Part shown: piece after piece, positions 6,602 through 54,983 of the stretch
Numbering within the stretch: the first letter of the stretch is position 1
Layout: the number at the start of each line of letters is the position of its first letter
NCBI GenBank assembly: GCA_009869945.1
Contig: WIXG01000282.1
Location: forward strand, 40,416-104,415
Length of the DNA stretch: 64,000 nt
Reading direction: 5' to 3'
From: Mesaphorura yosii
Lineage: Eukaryota; Arthropoda; Collembola; Poduromorpha; Tullbergiidae
The notes under the pieces: generated by a model
What the model was told of the DNA's origin: nothing
The model's input: only the letters and a program-made list of their open reading frames with translations
The model's database searches: none
Program-made: the position numbers and the translations under genes

Positions 6602-8241
6602 ATGTGTTCAAACGAAGACGACCCTGGTCAAACTGACCTCAAGAGCGTTAACGTCAGCACAAGCGCCACGCCAGCGCTTGCAGCGACCCAGCAGACGAGC
6701 AAACCGGCGGACACGACAAGTCGGAATCCAAATCGACGGGTAAGTTGAAGTTGAGCCAACCTTTTTGACCTTTTGCTTTAACTAAGCGTACTTGACTCAA
6801 TTCTCAACTGATGGTCTGATCATTTCTCGAAGTTTATGCGTTTATGAGTCCTTACCGGTTTTATGCCATCCTTCCTCGCTTCTTTTCACAGAGCAATAAA
6901 CCGATAATGGAAAAGCGTCGCCGTGCGCGAATCAACAACTGCCTCAACGAGCTCAAGTCGATTCTTCTTGAAGCGATGCGAAAGGATCCGGCGAGACACT
7001 CGAAGCTCGAGAAAGCCGATATTCTTGAGTTGACGGTCGCACACCTGAAAGAGCTTCATCGGAGTGCCAAGTCGGGAGGCGACGACGCAGCGTCGAGGTA
7101 CCGTGCAGGTTACTTGCATTGCATCTCGGAGGTCGAGCGCTATCTTGCCCAATCAGCGGCAGCGACATCGCCAAAACTCAGCAGCATCGAAGGAGGTGAC
7201 ACCGATTCAAATTCACAGCTTACATGTCGTCTGCTCACGCATCTCGCCGACTCGCTCGTGCTTGGGAGTGGTTCGCTGCACGCTAATGAAAAGAACTCGA
7301 CCGCGATGCTGTTAACAAGTCCAAAATGTGACAGTGCAAGTGCGTCGTCGTCTGCGTCTGCCGCCTCGGTGATGTTTGCCATTAATGGCAATGGCCGTGC
7401 TGAAAGTGAAATTAATTACAACGTCGAGAGTTTTAATCATAATAAATCACACGCTGCCGCCACAGCGAGAGACACGAACGCGAGCTCGAACGCAGCAACG
7501 CCTTCGCCTACTTCGAATTGCACAAGTGTAGCGACAGCATTCCGCAATGTGTCTGGAGATACACCCATCTTTTCTCTCGTGCCCTCGCGTCTTCCGACTG
7601 GCGAGATTGCGTTCATTGTTCCTGGCTTTAATTCGGCAAACTTTCAAGAGAAAATTGCGACAGGAACTCACAACCACTTAATAACGCAGCCTGCGACGAT
7701 GAAAGACGACCGCAGCCGCGGGAGTGCAAATTCGCTCTCGCCAGAGACGCCTTTGGAGCTAATGGTATCCTCTTCGACATCGGCTGGTCTGGCGAATTAC
7801 AGCTTCACTTACCTCGATAATCACCGCCATCTTCGGTCGTCCAGTGCGTCGCCGTCGTCAACGACCTCTTCAAATCTGTCTTCGCCGCTCAGCCCGGCAG
7901 CGTTGACGATCGCGAGCTTCCATAATCAGATCAATGCCAGTGTCCACGGTCAAGGCGCCAGTGTCGGAAGCGGTCTATACCAAAATCAGCAGCAGTTTAC
8001 TAATATTCAACCAGCTCACCACCATCAACAGCAGCAGCAGCGGAGTCGATATTTCAAGCAGCAGTCTAATCAGCTCCAGCATCACCTTCAGTCATACAAG
8101 TACGAATACGAGAATGAGATGACCATGACGATGGACGACGACCAAGATCAAGACATGGACGAGCCACTGGCGCTGGTGAAAGTTAAGCGCGAGGGCGAGA
8201 AGCAGCTTGTCGTGGACCTCAGCTGCTGGAGACCGTGGTAG
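6602..8241 (+). CDS. Hairy/HES-family bHLH-Orange repressor, gene A
   Basis: Coding exons are 6602-6739 and 6892-8241, giving 495 residues. The intron (152 bp, GTAAGT...CAG) falls between NPNRR and SNKPIMEKRRR, the same place as in the two paralogues in this window. Residues 47-103 are the bHLH, with the lysine-proline pair in the basic region typical of Hairy/E(spl) proteins. An Orange domain lies at about 114-168. Two motifs shared with the paralogues follow (PSRLPTGEIAFIVPGF; SPETPLELMVS), then a Gln/His-rich stretch and a terminal WRPW that recruits Groucho. Known family role: nuclear transcriptional repression, often downstream of Notch, in segmentation and neurogenesis. I chose the Met-Cys-Ser start because all three paralogues have it in frame with a matched splice. 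A downstream ATG inside the intron would leave out exon 1. It is hairy/deadpan-like by bHLH sequence; exact orthology is unresolved. Confidence 0.95.
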
Positions 8242-35669: not shown

Positions 35670-37115
35670 TCACCACGGTCTCCAGCAACTCATATCAGTC
35701 GCCTCGTCCTTTTTTGGTGTCACCAGCGACAAAGGGCGACTATCAGTGCCGGCGTGGGCGTGGCTCCTGTCTGAAGAATGCCTGGGCTTCGGGCGCAAGT
35801 GCTGAATGTGAGGGTGACTCGTCGACGTCGACGACGCCAGCGAGAGCGCCTGCTTTTCTTGCTGATGCTGCGCTGCATGCCGAATGACAGCCAGCGTCTG
35901 ACGTTGATGCCCGTGTCCATGACCATGACTGTGGCGGCGCTGATGACTATGACTTTGATACACATGAGATTTCCGGAAGGATGCCGCCCGATCACGATCT
36001 CGATCATGGCCCCCGTTCATCGCCATCGCGGCCGCGATTGGGTACGCAGGACCCGTTGCGAGGACGGAGTGCGAAAGCGAGTGCTTCGGCTGATGCGTCA
36101 CACCGGCGGCTGAAAACTGCGTCGGAGAAACGGTGAGCTCCAGCGGGACTTCAGGCGAAAGCAACGGAAGCGGCAGTGGCTGATGATGGCTGTGCTGCTG
36201 CATTTGCAGGTCATGTGCCTGTGCCTGGGATGGCGTCACCACGGACGGAGGGCTCTGACCAGGAAACAGGAACACAAACTCACCAGACGGAAGCCACGTC
36301 GGCACGAGTGACAAAAGCGGTTGCTGTTGCTGCTGCGAAGGTAGAGGCGGCGGCTGCTTTGAAATGACATTGACTTCGTTATTGTTAAGCTCGGGCAAGA
36401 CTGTGACGAGTCCGTCCTCGTCGAGTGCATGTGTGTTCCCATTCACAGTCGCATTAGCATGCATGTGCTGCTGCTGATTGTTGGCGGCGGCGACGCTCAG
36501 ATTGCAGTCTCCGATGCAGTCGGCCAAGTGACTCAGGAGGCTCCTGGTGACTGCACTGCTCGCCGCATCGCATGTGAGCGTCGACAGAAAACGGCCGACT
36601 TCCGCAATGCATTCGCTGAACCCTTCGCGAAATTTCAAGCTCACGTCAAGGCTGCTCATATGAAAGCCGCCGTGCTGGCTGTGGCGGTGCAGCGACTTCA
36701 GGTGCGAGACGGTCAGCTCGAGGATGTCTGCCTTCTCCAGCTTCGAGTGGCGAGCGGGGTCTTTGCGCATGGCGTCCAGCAGAATCGCCTTCAGCTCGTT
36801 GAGACAGTTGTTGATGCGCGCACGACGACGCTTTTCCATGATTGGCTTGTTGCTCTGCGATCCGTGCAAAAAATTGCCGAAATGAGAGCCGATCTTGTGA
36901 AAAACGTTACCGTTAAATTGCAATCTGAGAGGGGAAGCCTGACAAAAAGCCTCGCAAGGCTTGCTTACCCTTCGATTTTGGTTTCGGAGCGCCGCCTCAG
37001 ACAATTTGTGAATGATCGGCCATACCGAGCCGCCATTGCCATTTCCATGTGTCCCAGCGAGGCAGGAGCTGTCGTGCGACGCACTTGAAAGACTGGAACT
37101 CTCACTTGAGCACAT
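35670..37115 (-). CDS. Hairy/HES-family bHLH-Orange repressor, gene B
   Basis: Exons on the minus strand are 37115-36969 and 36854-35670, giving 443 residues. The intron (GTAAGC...CAG, 114 bp) sits at NQNRR|SNKPIMEKRRR, as in genes A and C. bHLH is at residues 50-106 and Orange at about 121-163. The shared motifs read PTWLPSGEFVFLFPG and SPEVPLELTVSP. The second half is rich in His, Gln and Ser, and ends SLVTPKKDEATDMSCWRPW. Role as for gene A: nuclear, Groucho-dependent repression. An ATG 22 codons further up (37181) is also in frame, but the Met-Cys-Ser start matches both paralogues. The intron is divisible by three and stop-free, so a retained-intron protein would carry 38 extra residues at the edge of the basic region. 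Confidence 0.95.
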   Translation of the reverse strand: MCSSESSSLSSASHDSSCLAGTHGNGNGGSVWPIIHKLSEAALRNQNRRVSKPCEAFCQASPLRLQFNGNVFHKIGSHFGNFLHGSQSNKPIMEKRRRARINNCLNELKAILLDAMRKDPARHSKLEKADILELTVSHLKSLHRHSQHGGFHMSSLDVSLKFREGFSECIAEVGRFLSTLTCDAASSAVTRSLLSHLADCIGDCNLSVAAANNQQQHMHANATVNGNTHALDEDGLVTVLPELNNNEVNVISKQPPPLPSQQQQQPLLSLVPTWLPSGEFVFLFPGQSPPSVVTPSQAQAHDLQMQQHSHHQPLPLPLLSPEVPLELTVSPTQFSAAGVTHQPKHSLSHSVLATGPAYPIAAAMAMNGGHDRDRDRAASFRKSHVYQSHSHQRRHSHGHGHGHQRQTLAVIRHAAQHQQEKQALSLASSTSTSHPHIQHLRPKPRHSSDRSHAHAGTDSRPLSLVTPKKDEATDMSCWRPW

Positions 37116-40100
37116 GATCACACTGGTTTTTACTGGGGCAGGCAGGCAGGAAGTTGGCGAACTGGGCAGCATTGCACTCATGAATTAATTGCAGTTGCAG
37201 AACGCTGCCAAATTAATCGTAGTGCAGCCGAGTAGTCAATTGTGGTCGAGAGTCAAGAGTCTCACGCAGACGAAGTTAACGAAGATGAAGACGCGGACGC
37301 GTTCACACTCACGTCTCACTCGTTCGACGCCCAAACTGATTCTGATTCTGACTCATCCCCGCTGCTGCTAAGCTACTGACTGCTGTGGTCGTCTCGTGTT
37401 GCTCATTGCTCATGCCTCATTGCCTGCCTGTACCTTGTCAAAATTAGTTTATGTTTGTGCGGTGATTGCACCATAAAAAAGTGTAAAGTGCGACCACAAA
37501 GAGCCAGCCGCACTCTGCCCATCCGCCCGCCCGTCGCTGTCGTTGCTCGACCAGATATGGTATTCAAGATTTAAGTGTTTTCACAATTAAACGGCTCGTC
37601 TGCTTTACCAAAATTGGCTGGATTTGGGGCAAAATGAAATAATTTGGCGTCTCTTTTGTGCCTTGATGGCTATAACTTCTCAATACTATGCTGAATTTAG
37701 GTGAAAGCTCTGTCATACCGGTGAGAAACCTCAAAAGACCCCGATTCAACGCAGGCAATACGAGTCCGTCCTTTAAAGAGTTAGAAATTAATCACCTAAA
37801 ATTTAAAAACATAATATTTAGGTAGCACTGTTCACAGTAATAGTTTAATGCCAAGAAGCTTCTGGTTCGAGTTTCAAGGCTTTCTCTGACGTTAGACATC
37901 GTCCGAGTCTGCTACGAATGTCTATTCCAAGGAGCCAAAAACAGGAAGCAGCAGCAGTTTGCCATCAGCATATCAGCATCAGCATCGGCGTCTCATATCG
38001 CATCTCATCACACGAATCCCGTGCGAGAGAATCAATCACAAAAGAATATTTGCCCTGTCGCACCATGCCGACTCGGTTCCCTTTCCTTTCGCTTTTCCTT
38101 TCCCCAGCGCTCAGCGCAGCGCCCTGCCACAGGTGACTGTGCCTGTCACGCCGTGCCATGCTAATCTGCAATCCATCATTCATCTTTACTTTGCAATGCA
38201 GTGACTTGGCTCGGCTTGCTACGCTACGCCTGTCAAGAACGGATTTCTTAAACTTTAAAACCAATTAGCCACGTCGCAAGTGATTCTTGCGTGCTGCTGC
38301 TGCACAGAAGTCCACGCTCAGTCATTTAATAGGCGAGATATGAGAATCCCAAACCACAAATCATCATCACTGCCATTCGTCATTTCATTTGCATTTAACC
38401 ACAGAATTACAAAATACGAAGTCCTCTTGTGCGCTCGCGTCTGCGCTTGTGCTTACGTCTGCCTTGAAGAAGAATTTAAGCGTTTAAAATCTGGCGTGGC
38501 TTGGCCCTCAGAACATTCAAAGTGTTAATTTCCATAATTACACTCTGTAAATTATCGGCTCGACCCGACACCTCAGCCAAAAGCAGAAGCAAAAATAAGC
38601 GCTCGTGGGCCAGTCGAAGTCGGGCTCGGACTCGAGCACTGCAAAGCAAGTGAGTAATTAGCGAAAGGGTGCAAATGCGTAGTAATTTTGAAAGAGATGA
38701 ATTCGAAATGTGAATGGCGATTTCGTTGGTCCGGTCGTCGTTAGTCGTTGGTGGGCTTCTGCTAATTACTTGCTAATCTGTCCGGCACGACGATATGACT
38801 TATGCCAATTCCAAGTCAAATAAAAGAAGCACACCACGCGTGAGCACACTTGCAAATTGCGAACTAGCTGGGCTATTATTAGTTCCGTAATTTTGCACTT
38901 TGCACTTGGAAATTGACTATTAACGGCTCTCTGCGCTACAGTCGGCGGTGTTGCTTTGTAAAACATTCCTCATTTATCTTAAATTCGCTAATTCACCACA
39001 CAATTCCGCCGTCTGCGGCGCGGCACGACACCCAGACGATAATTTCATCTTTTACCACCTTAATTAGAGTTCGATATGCAAAATCAGGACGAGAATGCAG
39101 TGCAAAGGCGAAGCGGTGGACGTCGACGTCGATTTCGAATAATGCCGGAGACGAAAATTGAGAATATTCCTTCTTATGGCATGCGACGGCACGTCCTCAC
39201 GTGTGACCTCGGCACCTTGACTGCTTTCGTAAACAAATCCCGGAAATACTTGAGATAATTGCAGTTTGCACGGGCTTGAATTATGCGATTATGCCTGCCA
39301 TGCAATTGGAAGTGAAAGATACACGAGATTTCAGTCGGGAGAGGAGAGAAGGAAATTTGTGGTGATTAGGAAAAGGACAACTGATACTTGATCAGCTTGT
39401 CAACATCTTTTGTACCCGACAATGGGAAATGTTTTCTACCGTACAAATTACTGAATAAATTACAATGCGCCTAAGCCGGATGTATAATTCGGTGAAAGAT
39501 GAGCCCAATAAACTCATAGTAATTTGAAACAGGTCGAAGCATCGATAATGCACCAATTCGATACAAATAAGAAATACGAGTACGCCACTAATTCATTTGG
39601 TAATTACTCTGAAAGTTGGGGTCAACAATACGAAGTTAGTGAGCAGTTGACGACGGCAAATAGAAATTGAGCCGAGCCCCGAATTGGAGAATCCAAGCTA
39701 TGAATTCGAACACAACCACATCACGGGCTGCTGTGACACAAGAATCGAGAATAGGCAAAAGAATGCACAGCAGTGCATGAAAGTAAGAGTGAAATCTTCA
39801 CATCGGAGCTGCACCAGGCTAAAAGCACAAAGATCGGTCGAGCCGAAGCGAAGCGAGGAGGGTTGAATTGAAAGTGGAAGATGTCATGCAGTGAATCAGT
39901 GCTGGGTTTTAAAGTGCAGGACAGGTGAAATTTGTTCTTGACATTGCATCGCGTTCAAATAAACTTGATCTTGAACCCTGGGCGGTGGTGGAACTCCTGA
40001 AAATGGTCCCTGCAGCGAGAGTGAGCGGGTACGTCATCGTAAAACAAACTTGGAGTGGAGATTTCGAGCCTTGCCTTGGAGGATCTGAACCAGTGTGAGG

Positions 40101-40612: not shown

Positions 40613-43224
40613 ATGTTCAATACGATAACGATCAGTGTCCTCAACTGGTTTCTTGGAGACTACTTGGACATTACCGATTTGGATCTATCACTCTGGGAAG
40701 GTAATAACCGTCTGTGTGTGCGCTGGTGACTGGGCGAACTGACAGGCACGATGCACGAGTATTGAAGTCTGAAGCCTATGTTGTTCGCGCAGGTGAATTC
40801 ACGCTCAACAATGTCGCCATCAAAAGCACTGCCATTCACGCTTTTCGGCTGCCTTATCACGTCGTTGCCGGAAATGTTGGGAAACTGTCTGTCAAGCTTC
40901 CATGGAGAAATATTTACACGAGCCCCGTCGAAGTCGTGCTCACCGACGTGCATATGGTCATAATAGAGTCAAGGATGGTGCCTTACGACCAGGAAGCTCA
41001 GGAGGCCGAGTTCCTCGCCTATAAAATGGCACACTTGAAGTACATGGAGGACAAAGACAAAGAACTTGAACGCCAAGGGTCGACTGGGTCCGCATCTTCT
41101 GGTGGCTCTGGTTCCGGAAGTGCAATCCAAGTCCCCGTGCTGACGCAGTCGCCGTCGTTCAGTGAAAACCTCGCCGCAGCGATTCTGCGTAATTTGACGG
41201 TGCGAGTTGAGTCTGTCCACATCCTCTACGAAGAAAATGACCCAGTGTATCAGCCGTTCAGTCTTGGAATCGTGCTTTCTGTCCTGACGCTGGAAACGAC
41301 GAACGAAAAGGGCACGCGGACCTTCGTTCCTGAGGAGATACCACTGCTCTATAAAGTAATGCAACAGTAACCTGTAGTAATTGCTTGGCTTAAATCCTCA
41401 ACCTTGACCTCAAGTCAAGTCACTTGCCTAAAATTCTCGACTGTCAATCAGCTTGTCAATCTTCACGGTTTCGGAGTGTACATGAACATCGATGACAACA
41501 TCACGAGGTACGGCCAATCAAGTCTGAACGCTGAAGCTAAAGAAGTTATACAGAAGCTGGGCGCACTTGTCAAAGACAAAGAGAAAGTTCGCTCACTAAA
41601 TTACAGTAATGACAAGATTACAGTTTAAGTGTTCAGGCAATTATTCGTGCTTTTCCATTGCAAATGATGAAATTAATTCGACTTCAACTTTGGGTTTGGT
41701 TTTGGCAGTTGTTGGACCAATCGTGACGTCCGCACTCTCGGCGCAAATCAAATCAGTTAATCGGCCAGACAAGAGCGTACCACCGTTCAGTATTCCGAAA
41801 ACTTCTATACAAATGGGAGTACAACGATTCGTAATAGGTAATTGTAGCCCAGGAAAACTGAAACTTGGTTTAATTGAAAGCTAAATACTTTATTTTGTTC
41901 AGTGATGTCAACCCTCCAGTTCGTGAATATCATCCGCCTGGCAAAGAAGATCACTGGCATCAGTGGCGAAGCAGCTCAGGCTTGGAGAAAGTACAGGCCG
42001 CTCGTGAATCAGTACAAAGGACATTACAAGCAATGGTAAGTTCTTAAAATTAAGCTTACTTGTGTTGGTTGCCCCTGTGAAATCTGAATTTTTGCTGAAT
42101 TTTCTGGTGTGTGTTTGCAGGTGGAGGTTCGCAATTATGTGTGTACTGTCCGAGATCCAAACCAGACGGGATATTTGGAGTTGGAAGAGTTTTAAGGCAC
42201 ATATTCAACATTGTAAGGAATACACTGAGGTGAGAAACCATTAGAATCCGTGCTCGTGTATCGACCGGATTGGAATTACTTCGGTAATTATAGCGTAATT
42301 ACATTACGTTTAGGCGCTGGTTCGGGTCAAGCTCGCCGACACTTACACAAACGTGCTGTTGAAATGGACTAATCATTTCTTGCCGTTGACGAGCACAGAC
42401 GAAGAATGCATTCGAACATACGAGGCACAGCTGAACATCCTCAGTTTGATGCTATGCCGGAAGAAAGCTCAAATAATAACCAAGCGTCATGAAGAGTTTG
42501 CCCGAAAGCACCATTCACAAGGATGGTTGAGCAACCTCTACGATTGGAAGGTCCTGGAGGAGCACTCTGACGATCTCACGCAATTTCTGGCAGCGCCATG
42601 GACGATGGCGGAAAAGGAAAAGCTGATCCTGGCTGCGGACTTCTGCGAATCCGAAGAACCGCAACCGGATCCAGGATCCAACCTGATTTATCCACTCGCC
42701 TTTATCGGATTCAGAGCTGCTCTAATTGCAAAAGAAATGAGTGTAACCGTTAAGGACTATGAAACCAATGCGGACGGGGATCAAATTCTGCAAATTAAGA
42801 TTAGTAACTTGCAAACGAGGTGAGAAAATGAACTAAAGAGGCACAAATAACAAGTGAAGTCATTTTCTCCATATTTAGCTTTGAGACTCGGCCAGCAAGC
42901 AATGGCTCCAGAATACGACTGCAGATGAAGAGTGTTGAAGTGACTGGCCAGTCAACACACTCAGCAGCGTTCGACGACGAGGACTCAAACTTCTTACTCA
43001 AGGCGGTCAGCACGAAACCAGGCCAGAACCTAGACATTTGCTACGAGAAATTCCCGTTTGACTCGCCCACGGCGGATGAGAAGTTATCGCTGACCTTCGC
43101 AAACGCGATTGAGATTGTGAACCACGCCGCAACTGTGCAAAAGATAATGAGTCTGATTTCGCAAGCCACCCGGCCATACAGCTTCTACAGCAGCAAAATG
43201 CCGTGGTTGCATGAAATCATATAA
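40613..43224 (+). CDS. Short VPS13-like lipid-transfer protein (N-terminal chorein/RBG module only)
   Basis: Eight exons (40613-40700, 40793-41355, 41452-41605, 41709-41837, 41903-42035, 42121-42229, 42314-42819, 42879-43224) join in phase to 675 residues. The start (VLNWFLGDYLDITDLDLSLW, then GEFTLNNVAI) is the chorein region. LPWRNIYTSPVEVVL, LYKLVNLHGFGVYMN, KQWWRFAI, RRDIWSWKSFKAH and CYEKFPFDSP track VPS13A/C over roughly their first 600 residues. A Ser/Gly-rich linker sits near residue 160. Full VPS13 proteins exceed 3000 residues and form a bridge that moves phospholipids between organelle membranes. This one ends at a TAA with a polyA signal 50 nt later, and an unrelated gene follows on the other strand. 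It lacks the WD40-like, ATG2-C and PH-like parts. It may be a specialised short paralogue or a truncated duplicate; all eight exons are intact. Confidence 0.9.
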
Positions 43225-43232
43225 CCAACAAT

Positions 43233-43238
43233 TTTATT
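43233..43238 (-). terminator. Polyadenylation signal, Gln/Pro/Gly-rich protein gene
   Basis: AATAAA on the minus strand, about 240 nt past the 43481 stop. It lies within the 3' end of the VPS13-like gene. Confidence 0.5.
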
Positions 43239-43273
43239 AATTTAACACAAAATTTGATTCCAACTTCGTCAGG

Positions 43274-43279
43274 AATAAA
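43274..43279 (+). terminator. Polyadenylation signal, VPS13-like gene
   Basis: AATAAA 50 nt after the TAA at 43222-43224. With the minus-strand signal at 43233 it implies that the two convergent transcripts overlap slightly. Confidence 0.65.
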
Positions 43280-44198: not shown

Positions 44199-46117
44199 CT
44201 GCTAATTAATCTCGATTCGCCTGGCCTTGCCTTTACATAGAAAAGCTTTAAAAGTGGTTCAGTTCAGAATTAATAATTGACGCCTGCTCAGAAACTTTTC
44301 CAAGGTGTGCGTGAAATGTGTGACTTTTTATTGCACTAGTATAATCTCTGTCGCAGACGGCAATTTTCGGTTTATTAACGAAATTTTAGCAATAGCAATT
44401 AGCAAGAATTACGTTCACAAGCAATCAAGCAATAGTGATTGACGCAATCAAAGATGTTAACTACTTCTTCTGCTGCTGGAGTCATCAGGAAGGAATCAAT
44501 TACACGTTTCATATTGCTTTGACTTAGCCTCCATTCAATAAACACCGTGATAAAAGTATTATAAGAGTTTTACTCTCAGGTCTCAGAATACGAGGTTTGC
44601 AATTCTACTGGGACCTTGAAGTTATGAACCAGATCACGTTCGGGATTTAAAACAGCTGAGATGATCCTATTACTTATGACTTATTACGGGATTGTTCATT
44701 TATTCTCGGTTGTGATGTGATGCAGGCGGAACTTTCAATAATAACTTATCGAATGTTGACTCACCCACGTACTGAATCTACTTAAAAGCATAGATTCATT
44801 TTCTTCGGCCTAAATATTGACTGATGTGTGGAGTCCAACGCATAATCAAAATCATGATCATATTGAACCCTTCCTAAGACAAAGGAGTCAAAGGACGCGT
44901 TAAGAAAGCACTTGGCACTGGCACTTCTCCAAGTGCAGCTTGAGTTTTGTCTTTAAGAACGTGAACGCCTTGACTGTGACTTCAGAACGAAGGTTTTGCC
45001 TGTGTGCGTGTGGGAACGGGACGGCCGCAGAGTTCTCACGTCAAAGAATTCCGACGAGTCAATCCACAGCACGAGAGTCCAACGCAGCGCAGAAGACCGA
45101 AGACAGGCAGACGCTGGGCCGACATCCTCACCGGCTCACTTTAAATTTCCACGCGCCGGTGCGCCAGTCGCGCTTCATCCACCTGCTGACCACTCGCGCA
45201 GAAGTGTGTGGCCTTGATCTTGGCCTTAATAGGCATCATTTTCATTTTAATGACCAAACTGTTCCATCCCGTGTCACATCGTCGTAAGAGGGAATAGAAG
45301 TTGTCGTCCGTTTCAGGGAGGTCCAATTATATTACTGCTGTGCGCCATGCCTTGCCATAATTCAAATCAAAATGAAAAATTCTTGCTTCATTCTTGAATT
45401 AAGATTAATAATAATCCGAGATAATGTCACTCTCTCTTCTCGTCTCTACTGCTTGGTTGGGAGGACGTCTCGCAGACGAGACAATGACATCATTTGTCGA
45501 GCTGTTGTGTCTGTGTCGTGTGTCGAGATCTTGAAAAGAATCTTGGAGGCTCCGAGACAGCACGCCAACAATAAATACGATGCAAAACTTGAAACTGAAG
45601 AACTGTCTTGCTTCTAGCACGCAGGCAGGACGTCCAACAACGTGCTTTATGAAGTCCCGCACGCACGCATTATAATTCCATAAATAATTTATGAATATGA
45701 GTTTTTGTAAAATCGAGCTCTCGATTCTGAGTTGAGTTGAAGCTTGTCTGAAGTGGACTGTGGGCTCTCCGCTCTAGGCCTAGTTTGACTTAGCACTTGG
45801 CGTTGCTATTCCTCCAAGAAGTGCAAATAAATGTAATCAGAATTCAGAAATCGCTGTGCCGTGTCATCGATCTGAACACAGATGAAGCTCGACAATCTAA
45901 GCACAGACACTGCACGCCCAGACGAAAGGATACTCAGCGCTGAAAGCTGAGACCACACTGATCATGATCATCGACTGATTTCATCTTTGACCACTTAATT
46001 TTATTAATGTTGAAACATAAATTTTTGGTTCGCTTTCCGTGATGGGGAGCTGTTGCCCCCAGGTCCGTTCACTCTACTACAGAACGTGCGACACAGAAGG
46101 ACTGAGCCCAAGCACAA
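44199..46117. other. Intergenic, no gene recognised
   Basis: Nothing coding was recognised. In particular I searched for the missing upstream part of the AIFM3-like fragment (Rieske CxH motifs, GGGPAA-type Rossmann motif) and did not find it. A TGTGGGAAC Su(H)-type match is at 45009-45017. Confidence 0.5.
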
Positions 46118-46539
46118 ATGCTTCGACAGCACAACTATGACGGGAAATTTATCATGGTGGCAGCTGACAAGAATCTGCCGTACGACAGGACAGTGCTGAG
46201 CAAGTTTCCAGGCTCTGAATGGGAATCGATTAAATTACGGTCAAGGTTAATTGACTAATTGACCTTTGATCTGTCGCCAGTTCACGAAAGCTTCCCGAAG
46301 CACTTCCTGGGCGTGACCTGAAGAACGTAGTCTACCTGCACAACATTGAGCAGTCAGCTTTCAACGCCACATCCTCGGTCGGGAAGCAAGTCATCATATA
46401 CGGCTCGAGGTTCTTCGCCATGAAACTCGCGTTCTCGCTCGAAGTCAAGGCGAGCAAAATCTTCATGCTTTCGAACGATTACGTGCCTTTTCTCAATGTA
46501 TTTGGCGACACCATCGCAACTATCCCAACTTCGAATTGA
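46118..46539 (+). pseudogene. Fragment of an AIFM3-like FAD/NAD oxidoreductase
   Basis: Two open blocks, 46118-46245 and 46281-46539, join across a 35-bp GTTAAT...CAG gap to 128 residues. MLRQHNYDGKF and LPYDRTVLSKF match the AIFM3 segment after its first Rossmann motif; LPEALPGRDLKNVVYL, GKQVIIYGSRFFAMKLAFSL and VPFLNVFGD match the next part. Whole AIFM3 proteins are about 600 residues with a Rieske domain and two nucleotide-binding folds. Here the Rieske domain, the FAD-binding glycine loop and the C-terminal half are absent. The remaining NAD-type loop has lost its last glycine (GSRFFA for GxSFIG). It is probably a decayed gene piece. A 35-bp intron is shorter than any other here, so the gap may be a mutation rather than an intron. 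Confidence 0.6.
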
Positions 46540-47587
46540 TCTTTATACGCAGAGTGACTGGAAGGCCGGTGTGGAGTTGTCGGGAAGCCTCAGGAAGCGT
46601 TTTCCGGGCCTACCACAAGTATGCAAATAGCAATAGCATAGAATAGCAGCAGTTGCGTTGCAGTCTTGAGTCTTTGATTAATTAACGTTTGAACGAACGA
46701 TGAATACTCAACAGTTAAGTTAATATATCCATGTCCTAGGATTAAATAAGACGTGCGTAGTTGTAAGAAAAGAAAGTTTGATAAATGATCAAATGATTTA
46801 CATAATGCGCCGCATTCAAGGTGGATTTCTGATTTGTGATGCAAATTCGAATACTTTCTTTGAGGAAGCGCAGACCGGCAAGAACGGAGAAGAGATTCAG
46901 ATTCAATACAATCACAAGGCGAGCATAATATTTTGACGCGCTTCATTGGATCTCACACACTGCGAACACTTCGAAGGGTTCAAACTTCCAACCTGCAGCG
47001 CAGCTCCTTTAAAAGGGGTACTTATGCAAATTCATAATTCATGCAAATACTGTGCGCTCCGATGCTAATGCAATGCAGAGGAAAGGTGTTTAATATCTTC
47101 CGGTCGATTAGAATGGAATTTATTCATAAAGAGAAAAAGAGATAAAAGAGGTCCAAGCGGCATGGCATGGCAGGTTTATGCAAATCAAGTATTCATGTGG
47201 TCATCCATCGATCAAACTGACACCAGCGCACATTTATCTTTATCTTTTATTGTAATTTATGCAATCCAATGCAATGCGCAGAGTTGGAATTCGGGATTCG
47301 GTCGATCGGGATTCGGAGTCGACAGGACTGGTTTCGGAGGAGTGCCATTGCCTGGTGGTTGTGTGGGAAACGAAACCACGACACAACGGATTTCGAATGG
47401 AATTTGAATATTCGAACTCGGATTGCTTCGACGACTGAAGACGGATCTGGGAATCGAAATGAAGATTTGCTCTTTCGCTCCTGCTGTTGTCTGTCTTCTG
47501 CTCTGACTGAGTTCTTGGCATCTGAATAAGTTATGGATCTCTATTTTTACTCGGGACTCTGAAGCACTGAAGCAGGCCAACGCCAAA
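46540..47587. other. Intergenic; one doubtful small secreted ORF
   Basis: The only item of note is an 81-codon frame at 47162-47407, with a hydrophobic stretch (LSLSFIVIYAIQCNA) followed by SGFGRSGFGVDRTGFGG. It resembles a small Gly/Phe-rich secreted peptide, but no promoter or introns support it. A TGTGGGAAA Su(H)-type match lies at 47362-47370. Confidence 0.35.
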
Positions 47588-50235
47588 ATGAAGTTCTTCA
47601 AGCTATTAGTCCTGGGCACGATTGGTTTCGCCATTGGCGTGGTTTGTTCCTTCCTATTCTATGAGTTTGTCGTATCCGAACTGGACATTGATGACTCATA
47701 TAAGGTCATCATGTTCGGAATGGTCGCAGTGTTTCTTTCGCTTGGCTACGCTATCTCTACGCAAGTAATCACAAATCTCGATGATCACTTTGTCTTTACA
47801 ATTGGCGCTGAGCCCGATTGTGTAATTCTGATTCCGCCAATTCAATTCTGCCCTTCGATAGCTGCGCTGCTTGACGATGCTGACCTTCCCCGAATTCTGG
47901 AGTACAGCCGGCAAACGCGCGCTGCAGGCCACCATCCTCATTCTCGTCCTGTCCGGCCCTGTTGCGAATATCGGGGAGAATGCTGAAGCCGTCGTGCACC
48001 TCGTCGTCTGCTTCAAAGACCTGACAATCAACATTACGTTAATCGGAAAGGATTTGATCATGGCACCCGGTAATCATCTTCTGCTGGACTTCAAAACCCA
48101 GGAGACCGACTACAAGTCTAAGTATAATTTAACGGCTCTCTCCACAATCGTCGAGCCACTTGAGGAGGAGGTCGGGGACGAACGGGAGACGGATGAACTG
48201 AGGGACGAGAACGACGAAATGGACGAGATGCTGGGCCACGTTGAGAGGTCACGGGTGTTTGACAGGCAGCAGCGGCGACAGGAGCTGAAGGCAATTCGAC
48301 ACGGGCAGGAGTTTTCGGCTGGCAAGAAAATTGAAGAGATTTACACTAGAAAGCTGGCTTACCGCTGCGAAAGTAGGCGCCCAACCCTAAACTACACAAA
48401 GTTATTGCCAACCTCCAAATGCAAATTGCAATTGCGAATTAGCAAATTTTTTGCAGGTATCTTCACAAAAGGCACGGACAGCTGTATTCTGATTTTTGGT
48501 CTCAAATACGACGAGTGCTACGAGAATGTGACGGAGTTTCTGGGCTGGCTGCTTTGTTGGCCGTTCAAACTCAGCTTTTTATGTGACCTTATTGGGAGTG
48601 AGTGTGACAGGTTAATGATAATCATGTCAATCTTCGTAATGAGTATCATTTTCGCAGTGTTTGCGCAGAGCAAATTGTGCGACGTCACGAATGTGATCCC
48701 GGAAGGATTCGGGGACAGTTATCTCGCGATTAAGAATGGGATTGAGGACTTCTCACAGAAATTCAAAGTAAAAGCCGACTATGCGGCGCTGGCGCATTTG
48801 GTAACTCAATTTGGTCAATTTTACACTATTGTCAAAATAATACGGGGTTCTTAATTTTGCGCACAGATCAACATAGAATCCATCAAAAGAACTCAAGAAG
48901 AACTTCTTGCCGCCTTTGAACGCACTCGGCACTATGTCGAATACTTCTTGGACCTGCTGAAGCGGGTACTTTCATTCACGTACCTGCTCATGATCTTCAA
49001 TGCGCTGGAGTACCATGGAAAATACTTTGAGCGCCTCTCCTTCGACAACTGCTACATCACATCGTATTTTATGCGTGTCGACAACCGAAGAAAGTACGTC
49101 CAAGGCCGGACGTCGATTCTGCCACTGAAGAGATACGAGAGGAGTGACTTCATGACGGTGTTTCGTCTCCGGCTGAAAGGCCACGAACTGACAAAGTTCA
49201 TCTTCTCACTGGTTATGCTCTGCATTCAGTTTCTCGTCGTGCTCGTTATTTACGGATTCGACTACGTGTTTACACGATGCCTGGAGTTGATCGGAAAACA
49301 CGCCAACATCACAATCACGCAGCAGGGATCGCATGAGCTGGAGTTTGGCATTACCGGCACCGGATTCGTCGCGAATCTGATGCGGGACATCGTCAAGGAC
49401 GTGAATGTCACGGAAAACATCGATGTGACACACATCACACAACGTAGATGAAGCGAAAACACATCGTGCATATTTGCTTCCTGCATAAGTTAACTAATGC
49501 GTGCTTTGTTTTTCAGCTTGCCTTCCGAATCCCTGCCGAATCGACTCCAGTTATTTGAACCGCACACTGATTCTCTTTGGAGTCCTCATCCTTATAATTT
49601 ACGTCGAAGCTTTGTCATTGCGGACTCGCCATTGCATTGCGAATTTCTTCTACACAAAGGTAGAGCGTGTGACCGGGCCTGTTTACTCTTTTGTCAGACA
49701 GCCAGACGTTCCCACACACATGAATTTATGACGCCGGCATGGCGCATGACTGGATTTCTTATTCACAGCGCTCAAAGGAGAGAATTCGCTGGCTATACAA
49801 CCAAACGCTAAGAAACCGCACTGGACAACTCATCCACTTGAAGGAGCGCGTCCTGGAAAATGCGGACGAACTCCATAAAAAGGTGGCGACGTAATTTGTA
49901 ATTAACGGCCGGGCGTGCGAATTAGTTGGCCATTAGAAGTTTTGACAATGGTAATTGCTGAATGGATGGTTTTTCAGTTTGATTGGAATTTCGTGCTAAG
50001 TTGCGTGGAAACTTTTCCACGACTCTGCCGCTGTTTAAAATGCTTCAAGTTCGGACGGCGAAAATGCGTCCTCTGCCTGAAGCTTGGAGAATTCTACCGA
50101 TGTCCGACCTGCTACTTATCGTACTGCTACGAGTGCTGGCAGGATACCGACCAACGATGTGTGCATTGTCTCGCGAGGGCCGAGCTGCACGCGCAAATGT
50201 ACGAAGAAGTACCGGATGAGATTGCTCGTGTTTAA
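47588..50235 (+). CDS. DC-STAMP domain-containing protein, DCST1/sneaky/SPE-42 family
   Basis: Eight exons (47588-47764, 47862-48372, 48457-48597, 48658-48800, 48867-49443, 49517-49659, 49769-49882, 49978-50235) join in phase to 687 residues, the usual family length. Hydrophobic spans occur at about 5-30, 38-57 and 78-93, near the LGWLLCWPFKLSFLCD motif, at LLMIFNALEYH, at about 436-460, and at LILFGVLILIIYVEAL. An acidic coiled region lies at about 150-200. The DC-STAMP-like domain includes LPLKRYERSDF. The C-terminus is a RING-like zinc finger (CLKCFKFGRRKCVLC ... CPTCYLSYCYECW ... CVHC). Known role: sperm membrane proteins needed for fertilisation (sneaky in Drosophila, SPE-42/49 in C. elegans, DCST1/2 in mammals). 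Introns 2 and 3 are stop-free multiples of three. DCST1 versus DCST2 is not settled by eye. Confidence 0.93.
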
Positions 50236-53731: not shown

Positions 53732-54983
53732 TTACCATGGTCTCCAGCAGCTCATGTCTGTATCATCTCGTTTTGGCGTGACCAGCGATAAGGGTTGCTG
53801 GCCCTGATAGTCTTCTGCCCTCATCGTCATCGGCCTGGGAGTGTGATGTCTGCTTTTTGCGCTTGCAGTGGTGTTGTAGATGTGCCCTTGCGAGTGTGCC
53901 GTCGGTGGAGGCGGGTAGACCTCCTTATCAACCGAGTATGCGGCAGGACTGATCGTCGGAGGCGAGACAGTAAGCTCCAGTGGCACTTCGGGAGACATCA
54001 GCATTGACTGCTGCGGTGGAGCAAATCTGGCATTGTTGTTGTTCGAGTCTGATAACGAGGAACCGCCGGCTGACATCGCTTGAATCGTTGATGAATTAAA
54101 TCCTGGCAACACGAACGCAAACTCTCCTGAAGGTAGTCTGGAGGGCACCAGCGAAATAATTGGTGACATGTTAAATCCAGAAGCGCTGTGATTTGATGTT
54201 GCGGCGGCTGAAACCGCCGTGGTCATGAAAGATGATCGCCGGTGGGTCATTGGATAATTGTTGTTTGGTTCACCGTCACTTTCGTACTTGAACAGGCCGC
54301 CACCGCCACCGCGATCACTCATACTCATGCTTCCCGGAACCGCATGCATTGACGGATTTCCAAGACAGTCAGCCAAGTGACTGAGAAGTCGAGTGGTGAT
54401 TCCTGTCGCATAGTCCTCCGACTTGATTGTTGCCGATGATGTCAGGAAACGACCGACTTCGTTAATGCATTCGGTGAAACCGGCACGAAATCTTGCATTC
54501 AAGTGATTGATGTCGACTGCAGCCGATCTGCTCGTGGTTCGATGAAGAGACTTCAGGTGTGCGACCGTCAGCTCCAGAATGTCAGCCTTTTCCAGTTTTG
54601 AGTGCCTGGCTGGGTCTTTGCGCATGGCTTCAAGTAAAATTGCCTTCAGCTCGTTCAGGCAATTGTTGATTCGTGCGCGCCGTCTCTTTTCCATAATTGG
54701 CTTGTTACTCTGTAAGACAGAAAATGAGAGGTTAATTAATTGTACAAGAGTCAAGGCAAGACGTTCGTGAGCTGACCAGGTTAAAAATTTCTCAATTTAC
54801 CCGTCGGTTCGGATTCCGATGATTTGTGGTGTCGGGCATTTTCATGAGTGATCCGATCCCAGACTTTCCAGTCATTGAGGACATTGAGCTGGGGCTCAGC
54901 GAATTCACACTGATGTTCCCGTTGGTGGTACTGCTGGGGCCGTCCTCTGACGCGGAGTCACTGACGAGCTCCGTTGAACACAT
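53732..54983 (-). CDS. Hairy/HES-family bHLH-Orange repressor, gene C
   Basis: Exons on the minus strand are 54983-54801 and 54709-53732 (intron 91 bp, GTAAAT...CAG), giving 386 residues. The intron is at NPNRR|SNKPIMEKRRR. bHLH is at residues 62-118 and Orange at about 132-176. The shared motifs read PSRLPSGEFAFVLPGF and SPEVPLELTVSP; the end is SLVTPKRDDTDMSCWRPW, nearly the same as gene B, so B and C look like the closest pair. The start is the Met-Cys-Ser ATG, in a good context (AAAATG). The frame stays open upstream, but only with a GTG as a possible earlier start. Role as for gene A. Confidence 0.95.

Follow-up and report, generated by a model that had tools for sequence, protein, structure and literature searches.

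A gene in the window analyzed here (64 kb at the end of contig C282; positions below are window coordinates) resembles the N-terminal end of VPS13A and VPS13C and then stops. Whether such a gene is complete in its own right, how it arose, and what so short a VPS13 protein might do were the questions raised by this locus. A first-pass annotation had described eight cleanly spliced exons that encode 675 residues in an unbroken frame, and our gene model agreed: all introns run from GT to AG, and a single frame of 675 codons plus TAA ends at 43224. We refer to this gene (40613-43224, + strand) as the window mini and to a second short gene, on contig C3, as the C3 mini. C63 and C457 are contigs of the same genome with long VPS13 loci that are described below. 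The features of the window mini and its immediate surroundings are as follows.

40613..40700, + strand: exon 1, start codon and N-terminal membrane-facing helix, followed by a phase-1 intron common to the C3, C63, and C457 genes
40793..41355, + strand: exon 2, chorein/first groove segment, residues 30-217
41452..41605, + strand: exon 3, residues 218-268
41709..41837, + strand: exon 4, residues 269-311
41903..42035, + strand: exon 5, residues 312-355, running up to the WW pair in the putative calmodulin-binding helices (by alignment)
42025..42337, + strand: putative calmodulin-binding helices, residues ~353-400, with two introns inside; aligned to VPS13C H370-391 and H395-418
42036..42120, + strand: intron within the WW codon pair, found in the window mini only among the four gene models compared
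42121..42229, + strand: exon 6, residues 356-392; W357, I361, L365, and W377 are the equivalents of VPS13C W374, I378, L382, and W395
42314..42819, + strand: exon 7, residues 393-560, containing the equivalent of VPS13C H438-451
42879..43224, + strand: exon 8 with the stop codon, residues 561-675; the homologue of C63 exon 9, in which both minis stop
43274..43279, + strand: AATAAA polyadenylation-type signal, 50 nt 3' of the stop codon
43484..44119, - strand: neighboring ORF, not VPS13; Gln/Gly/Pro-rich with a signal-like N-terminus (by eye)

The Pfam VPS13_N profile matched residues 1-650 of the window mini at profile positions 1-643 of 1317 (269.1 bits against a cut-off of 80, E=1e-79). Four distinct sequences in the PDB set matched as well. 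The best was VPS13A (E=6.2e-46), in which query residues 2-652 aligned with chain residues 3-603, just as the first-pass annotation had it when it described a protein that follows VPS13A/C from residue 1 to about 600. VPS13C followed at E=6.5e-45, and the remaining two VPS13 chains we take to be fungal. Membership in the ATG2 family was considered and rejected because ATG2_CAD matched residues 13-202 only, with 51.6 bits (cut-off 50), against 269.1 bits for VPS13_N. A structure prediction for exon 2 (three rows) had a mean pLDDT of 47.1, which was uninformative, and the model was discarded. A scan of viral contigs with exon 2 gave nine pattern matches and no relatives. The AATAAA signal and the oppositely oriented ORF beyond it lie where they had been placed; the ORF had no Pfam match.

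The first-pass annotation had named two things that could undo its reading, namely, splicing into further VPS13 exons and an assembly error at about 43.3 kb, and had proposed a search of the same genome for a full-length VPS13A/C gene. We searched the genome (93.0 Mb, 1127 contigs) with profiles. VPS13_N gave 18 matches on nine contigs, VPS13_M gave eight and VAB gave five (both on C8, C431, and C63), and VPS13_C gave three, on C63 and C8. No match to VPS13_M, VAB, or VPS13_C fell on C282 or C3 in this genome-wide search, so no further VPS13 exons were detected into which the window mini could splice. All three contigs that carry the distal-domain matches also have VPS13_N, and no orphan C-terminal VPS13 half was found among the genome-wide VPS13_M, VAB, and VPS13_C matches. 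A faulty assembly join at 43.3 kb was not supported either, since the C3 mini, an independent gene of the same extent, has the same architecture on a separate contig. Thus, the reading of the window mini as a free-standing N-terminal VPS13A/C-type gene was supported, and it is unlikely to be a pseudogene or an assembly error. Because the middle groove, the VAB repeats, and the VPS13_C end are absent, we filed it as VPS13-derived and not as a complete VPS13.

The search for a full-length relative was successful. The C63 locus is of the VPS13A/C type, and profile matches to the N-terminal, middle, VAB, and C-terminal parts are spread over 192081-205453; our C63 gene model covers its first 878 residues. 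The C457 locus (C457:1-3904) is also long, with 1142 residues and no stop codon up to the contig edge. The VPS13_M, VAB, and VPS13_C searches revealed no separate distal half for C457, and its distal part is missing at the contig edge, so the assembly is incomplete for VPS13. A third long VPS13A/C-type locus, C431 (C431:17913-26514), has a VAB match. C457 and C431 are both GC-rich and grouped together at 100/100 in a nine-row tree and at 100/99 when the C8 row was left out. A contaminant origin was considered for both loci and dropped for C431, as it also has Chitin_bind_4 matches, as do many contigs here (66 matches among 69 candidates in the genome, an abundance that suggests an arthropod or something close to one); C457 may still be a contaminant. 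Judged by eye from their translations, C8 appears VPS13D-like, C14 VPS13B-like, C46 ATG2-like, and C38 BLTP3-like.

Second short gene and origin of the pair

The C3 mini lies at C3:493531-496068. In the spliced model, it has eight exons with GT..AG introns throughout, 667 residues, and its own stop codon. BLASTP aligned it with the window mini over residues 1-656 (E=4e-96, 30.4% identity), and the two are 32% identical over the aligned columns of the nine-row alignment. Judged by eye, it is flanked on one side by a subtilase-like ORF and on the other by a kinase-like gene in opposite orientation; therefore, the C3 mini is not a repeat of the window locus. Neither AATAAA nor ATTAAA was present within 734 nt downstream.

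In the nine-row tree, the minis grouped as a single clade (100/100) on a stem of 0.79 changes per column, and their tips measured 0.99 and 1.26. When the long C8 row was omitted, the clade was again recovered at 100/100, with tips of 0.92 and 1.14. Forcing the window mini to group with C63 alone was rejected (AU p=4.7e-5). The five loci of the A/C type in this genome, minis included, grouped together to the exclusion of human A and C with support of 92/93 and 90/92, values below the starred level, and constraining C63 to group with the two human proteins was not rejected (p=0.091). In view of the latter result, the short lineage may be older than the lineage of this animal. A further trait shared by the minis is a 3-residue gap that directly follows G-D-Y/F in the N-terminal tip, which occurs in both of them and in none of the seven other rows of the alignment.

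The introns pointed to the same relationship. Six of the seven introns in the window mini, and all seven in the C3 mini, match C63 introns in both column and phase. The window mini does not have one intron that is common to C3 and C63, and it has an extra one of its own within the WW pair; since this intron is private to the window mini, the introns are not all ancestral. The C63 exon whose homologue ends both minis (exon 9) is followed by a phase-2 intron after residue 626. An origin of the minis as retrocopies was rejected because introns were kept at the same columns and phases. Comparison of the gene structures instead supported derivation of the window mini from a VPS13A/C-type gene by DNA duplication. 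A single truncating DNA duplication followed by a later second duplication would account for the clade, the introns, the shared end exon, and the indel.

We also examined how the two genes have evolved since. The two minis have diverged by 0.55, 0.40, and 0.69 at codon positions 1, 2, and 3, respectively (627 codons). When neutral evolution was simulated with substitutions only, 0.05 changes per site left 2 of 200 frames open, and 0.1 left none of 200. Given these results and about one amino acid change per column on each branch, both frames appear to have been under selection most of the time. The position 3 difference, 0.68-0.69 in the three pairs compared, was too near saturation for a dN/dS value. 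Evolution has been faster in the minis than in the long genes: of the 44 columns invariant in six long forms, the window mini keeps 27 and the C3 mini 28, and the long genes, each compared to the other five long forms and hence not like for like with the minis, keep 44/52 (C63), 44/62 (C457), and 43/63 (C431). Taken together, the sequence data supported the idea that a short VPS13 subfamily of two diverged genes has been retained in this animal. The shared ancestry and intact sequences of the minis suggest a cut-down lipid carrier that has long been kept. Of the original interpretation, the free-standing N-terminal VPS13A/C-type gene stood, but the second gene, the shared introns, and the putative calmodulin-binding region considered below had been missed.

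Groove, tip, and calmodulin region of the short proteins

To score the groove, we took the columns at which at least 80% of the long forms have a strongly hydrophobic residue; for scoring five of the long forms themselves, each was left out in turn. Hydrophobic residues were kept at 137/154 of these columns in the window mini and at 131/153 in the C3 mini. Under the same test, the long forms ranged from 127/150 (C431, the lowest) to 133/139 (human A, the highest), with C63 at 129/138, C457 at 129/143, and human C at 132/142. Over four successive segments, the counts were 49/52, 38/41, 27/33, and 20/25 for the window mini; 47/52, 36/40, 27/33, and 18/25 for the C3 mini; and 50/50, 37/44, 25/27, and 17/17 for C63. 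The first two segments together gave 87/93 for the window mini compared to 87/94 for C63 and 87/99 for C457. New hydrophobic residues at polar columns were slightly more frequent in the minis (41/368 and 41/362) than in the long forms (19/317 to 33/329). Judged by the hydrophobic columns, the pattern of the donor-end groove is kept in the minis. Since hydrophobic retention declines along the window mini, its cut end may be relaxing.

At the other end of the protein, the N-terminal tip helix (40613-40700) of the window mini had a mean hydrophobicity of 0.79 and a moment of 0.32, compared to 0.43 and 0.59 in C63. The moment in C457 was also 0.32, despite its being a long gene. Relative to C63, the tip helix of the window mini is thus higher in hydrophobicity and lower in amphipathicity, and this, together with the 3-residue deletion, may have changed its contact with the membrane.

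VPS13A, C, and D and fungal Vps13 are reported to bind calmodulin via helices between RBG1 and RBG2, and the available text of the same study describes VPS13C mutants, W395C and A444P among others, that do not bind calmodulin, as well as a triple mutant, W374K/I378D/L382K, that loses both calmodulin binding and the rod shape (PMC13430412). In our alignment, the window mini keeps W374, I378, L382, and W395 as W357, I361, L365, and W377, and the equivalent of A444 is C440; thus, four of the five tested positions are kept. The C3 mini keeps both tryptophans of the WW pair and W395, and five to six residues of H370-391 are missing from it in the alignment. By these aligned positions, the window mini may bind calmodulin.

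The VPS13C FFAT motif (877-883) falls beyond the end of both minis. A home-made FFAT scan, based on a consensus motif, gave no clear site in the window mini, and the scan was non-discriminating, as the long proteins scored similarly or higher. With neither a distal groove nor a VAB adaptor, no C-terminal targeting parts, and an end short of the FFAT position, the window mini would be expected not to use these known VPS13 recruitment routes.

In the case of the C3 mini, the C-terminus has a 19-residue stretch with a mean hydropathy of 1.86; arginines lie before it, and just 3 residues come after it. Among the four proteins scanned (C63 and C457 over their first 640 residues only), no other stretch scored as high; the next, 1.44, was in C457. 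The same scan found no comparable hydrophobic tail in the window mini. By composition, the C3 tail is of the tail-anchor type, and the protein may be fixed to a membrane.

Possible roles of a short VPS13

Because the window mini ends in the homologue of C63 exon 9, its product is limited to the N-terminal cap and roughly the first two groove repeats with their intervening helices. It is like VPS13A/VPS13C (represented here by the C63 gene) in the N-terminal 620-650 residues, the intron positions and phases, most calmodulin-contact positions, and the hydrophobic groove pattern. It differs in stopping after about the second groove repeat and in having 3 residues fewer at the N-terminal tip, and its 675 residues compare to 3777 in the PDB VPS13C chain. 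The VPS13C bridge is described as ~300 Å long with thirteen RBG domains (PMC13430412); with about two repeats, the window mini would be far shorter than this bridge unless it is dimeric.

One close counterpart is engineered. CtVps13(1-635), a 70-kDa fragment, is reported to be poorly expressed and insoluble alone and to form a soluble heterotetramer with calmodulin, in which two copies lie tail to tail in a rod (PMC13430412, available text). By alignment, this fragment and the window mini have the same extent, that is, the N cap, RBG1, the calmodulin helices, and RBG2. The fragment is a laboratory construct derived from a fungal gene of full length, whereas the window mini is a natural gene, known from its sequence. 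A 345-residue N-terminal piece of ATG2A is also a short N-terminal RBG piece, but it is engineered, shorter, and from the ATG2 family; it is reported to transfer lipid in vitro and, on overexpression, to rescue autophagy (Valverde 2019, via the accessible part of PMC6625793). The first-pass statement that a protein this short could not bridge membranes was, in light of this piece, too strong.

Naturally shorter RBG proteins are also on record. According to the available portion of PMC7613979, RBG domains have been lost and gained within the superfamily, and SHIP164/BLTP3 and plant VPS13X are natural shorter members with homologous N-terminal repeats, like the window mini. They have six and nine RBG domains, respectively, compared to about two in the window mini, and VPS13X retains the VAB repeats; that portion makes no mention of members as short as the window mini. 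In the titles and abstracts of the literature searched, subscription papers aside, we found no report of a stand-alone N-terminal VPS13 gene. Unannotated short relatives may well exist elsewhere. Short splice isoforms exist for human VPS13B.

The first-pass annotation had named a shuttle, a regulator, and an inhibitor of full-length VPS13 as candidate roles. Our preferred reading, held with middling confidence and by analogy to CtVps13(1-635), is that the window mini is a calmodulin-bound short lipid carrier that acts as a shuttle or as a short dimeric bridge. The protein would fold as a lipid-holding scoop clamped by calmodulin, much like the engineered fragment. A few lipid molecules would be loaded from the donor membrane via the N-terminal tip and delivered over short distances, either by a diffusing shuttle or by tail-to-tail dimers, short rods that would expose a tip at either end. 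The C3 relative might be held at a membrane by its tail-anchor-type stretch. A more specific version of the short carrier, which we consider quite unlikely as a whole, is a stand-alone donor-end module kept twice. Here, a calmodulin-gated tail-to-tail dimer would form a short lipid bridge, symmetric in that both of its tips are of the donor type, suited to very close or like-to-like membranes, and the C3 sister would have swapped the distal bridge for a C-terminal membrane anchor. The tail-to-tail pairing of engineered fragments may itself be a product of the artificial cut.

Several other readings were weighed against the short carrier. A regulator or inhibitor would compete with full-length VPS13A/C for calmodulin or for N-terminal docking at the ER, or would cap the groove of the full-length protein, so that less lipid flows. 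This idea draws on the retention of the donor-end part and most calmodulin-contact positions in a protein whose delivery end is absent, and on the full-length VPS13A/C-type gene in the same genome. We nevertheless regarded it as unlikely. Calmodulin is usually abundant, which makes its titration by the mini improbable, the sequence gave no sign of binding to full-length VPS13, and both minis keep groove hydrophobicity at close to long-form rates, which a pure decoy would not need. Similarly doubtful is a calmodulin-binding, membrane-tip scaffold that serves as a calcium-responsive tether or adaptor and in which the lipid groove is incidental. The kept calmodulin positions (four of five), the less hydrophobic last two groove segments, and the anchor-like tail of the C3 protein fit such a scaffold, but the first two groove segments of the window mini, as hydrophobic as those of the long forms, do not.

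The two remaining readings fared worse. A decaying truncated duplicate, transcribed by chance or never, would be in keeping with the rapid divergence of the minis, as seen in tip branches of 0.92-1.26 changes per column and, for the window mini, in the retention of 27 of 44 invariant columns. We think it very unlikely, however, because two open frames with canonical splice sites have outlasted a long separate evolution, none of the neutral simulations remained open at 0.1 changes per site, and the codon positions are constrained by the amino acids encoded. A split VPS13, in which a separately encoded C-terminal half joins the mini to form a long bridge, could in principle use a tail-to-tail edge such as that of CtVps13(1-635) (PMC13430412, in its available part), and the truncation of C457 at a contig edge shows that the assembly is incomplete for VPS13. 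On the other hand, every VPS13_M, VAB, and VPS13_C match lies on a contig that also has VPS13_N, and a split VPS13 seemed to us scarcely credible.

The choice between these readings bears on a wider issue. In the accessible part of the VPS13-type literature, cut-down constructs have been the basis for arguing whether these proteins move lipid solely as end-to-end bridges or whether a lone donor end could serve as a carrier. A natural short VPS13, present as two diverged genes beside full-length VPS13, would offer a test in a living animal of the donor end and calmodulin acting alone.

Other genes in the window

Downstream of the window mini, coding-like pieces at 46106-46936 (+ strand) resemble, by eye, a pyridine-nucleotide oxidoreductase of the AIF type. 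Two of the pieces were tested and had no Pfam match, and they may be diverged or decaying. A gene for a DC-STAMP-like membrane protein follows at 47862-49448 (+ strand); 47862-48851 had no Pfam match, and 48855-49448 matched at E=1e-30. The window also contains three Hairy-type genes with a bHLH and an Orange domain and, by eye, a WRPW end, located at 6820-8238 (+ strand), 35673-37184 (- strand), and 53735-54796 (- strand). This trio spans 48 kb, with unrelated genes in between.
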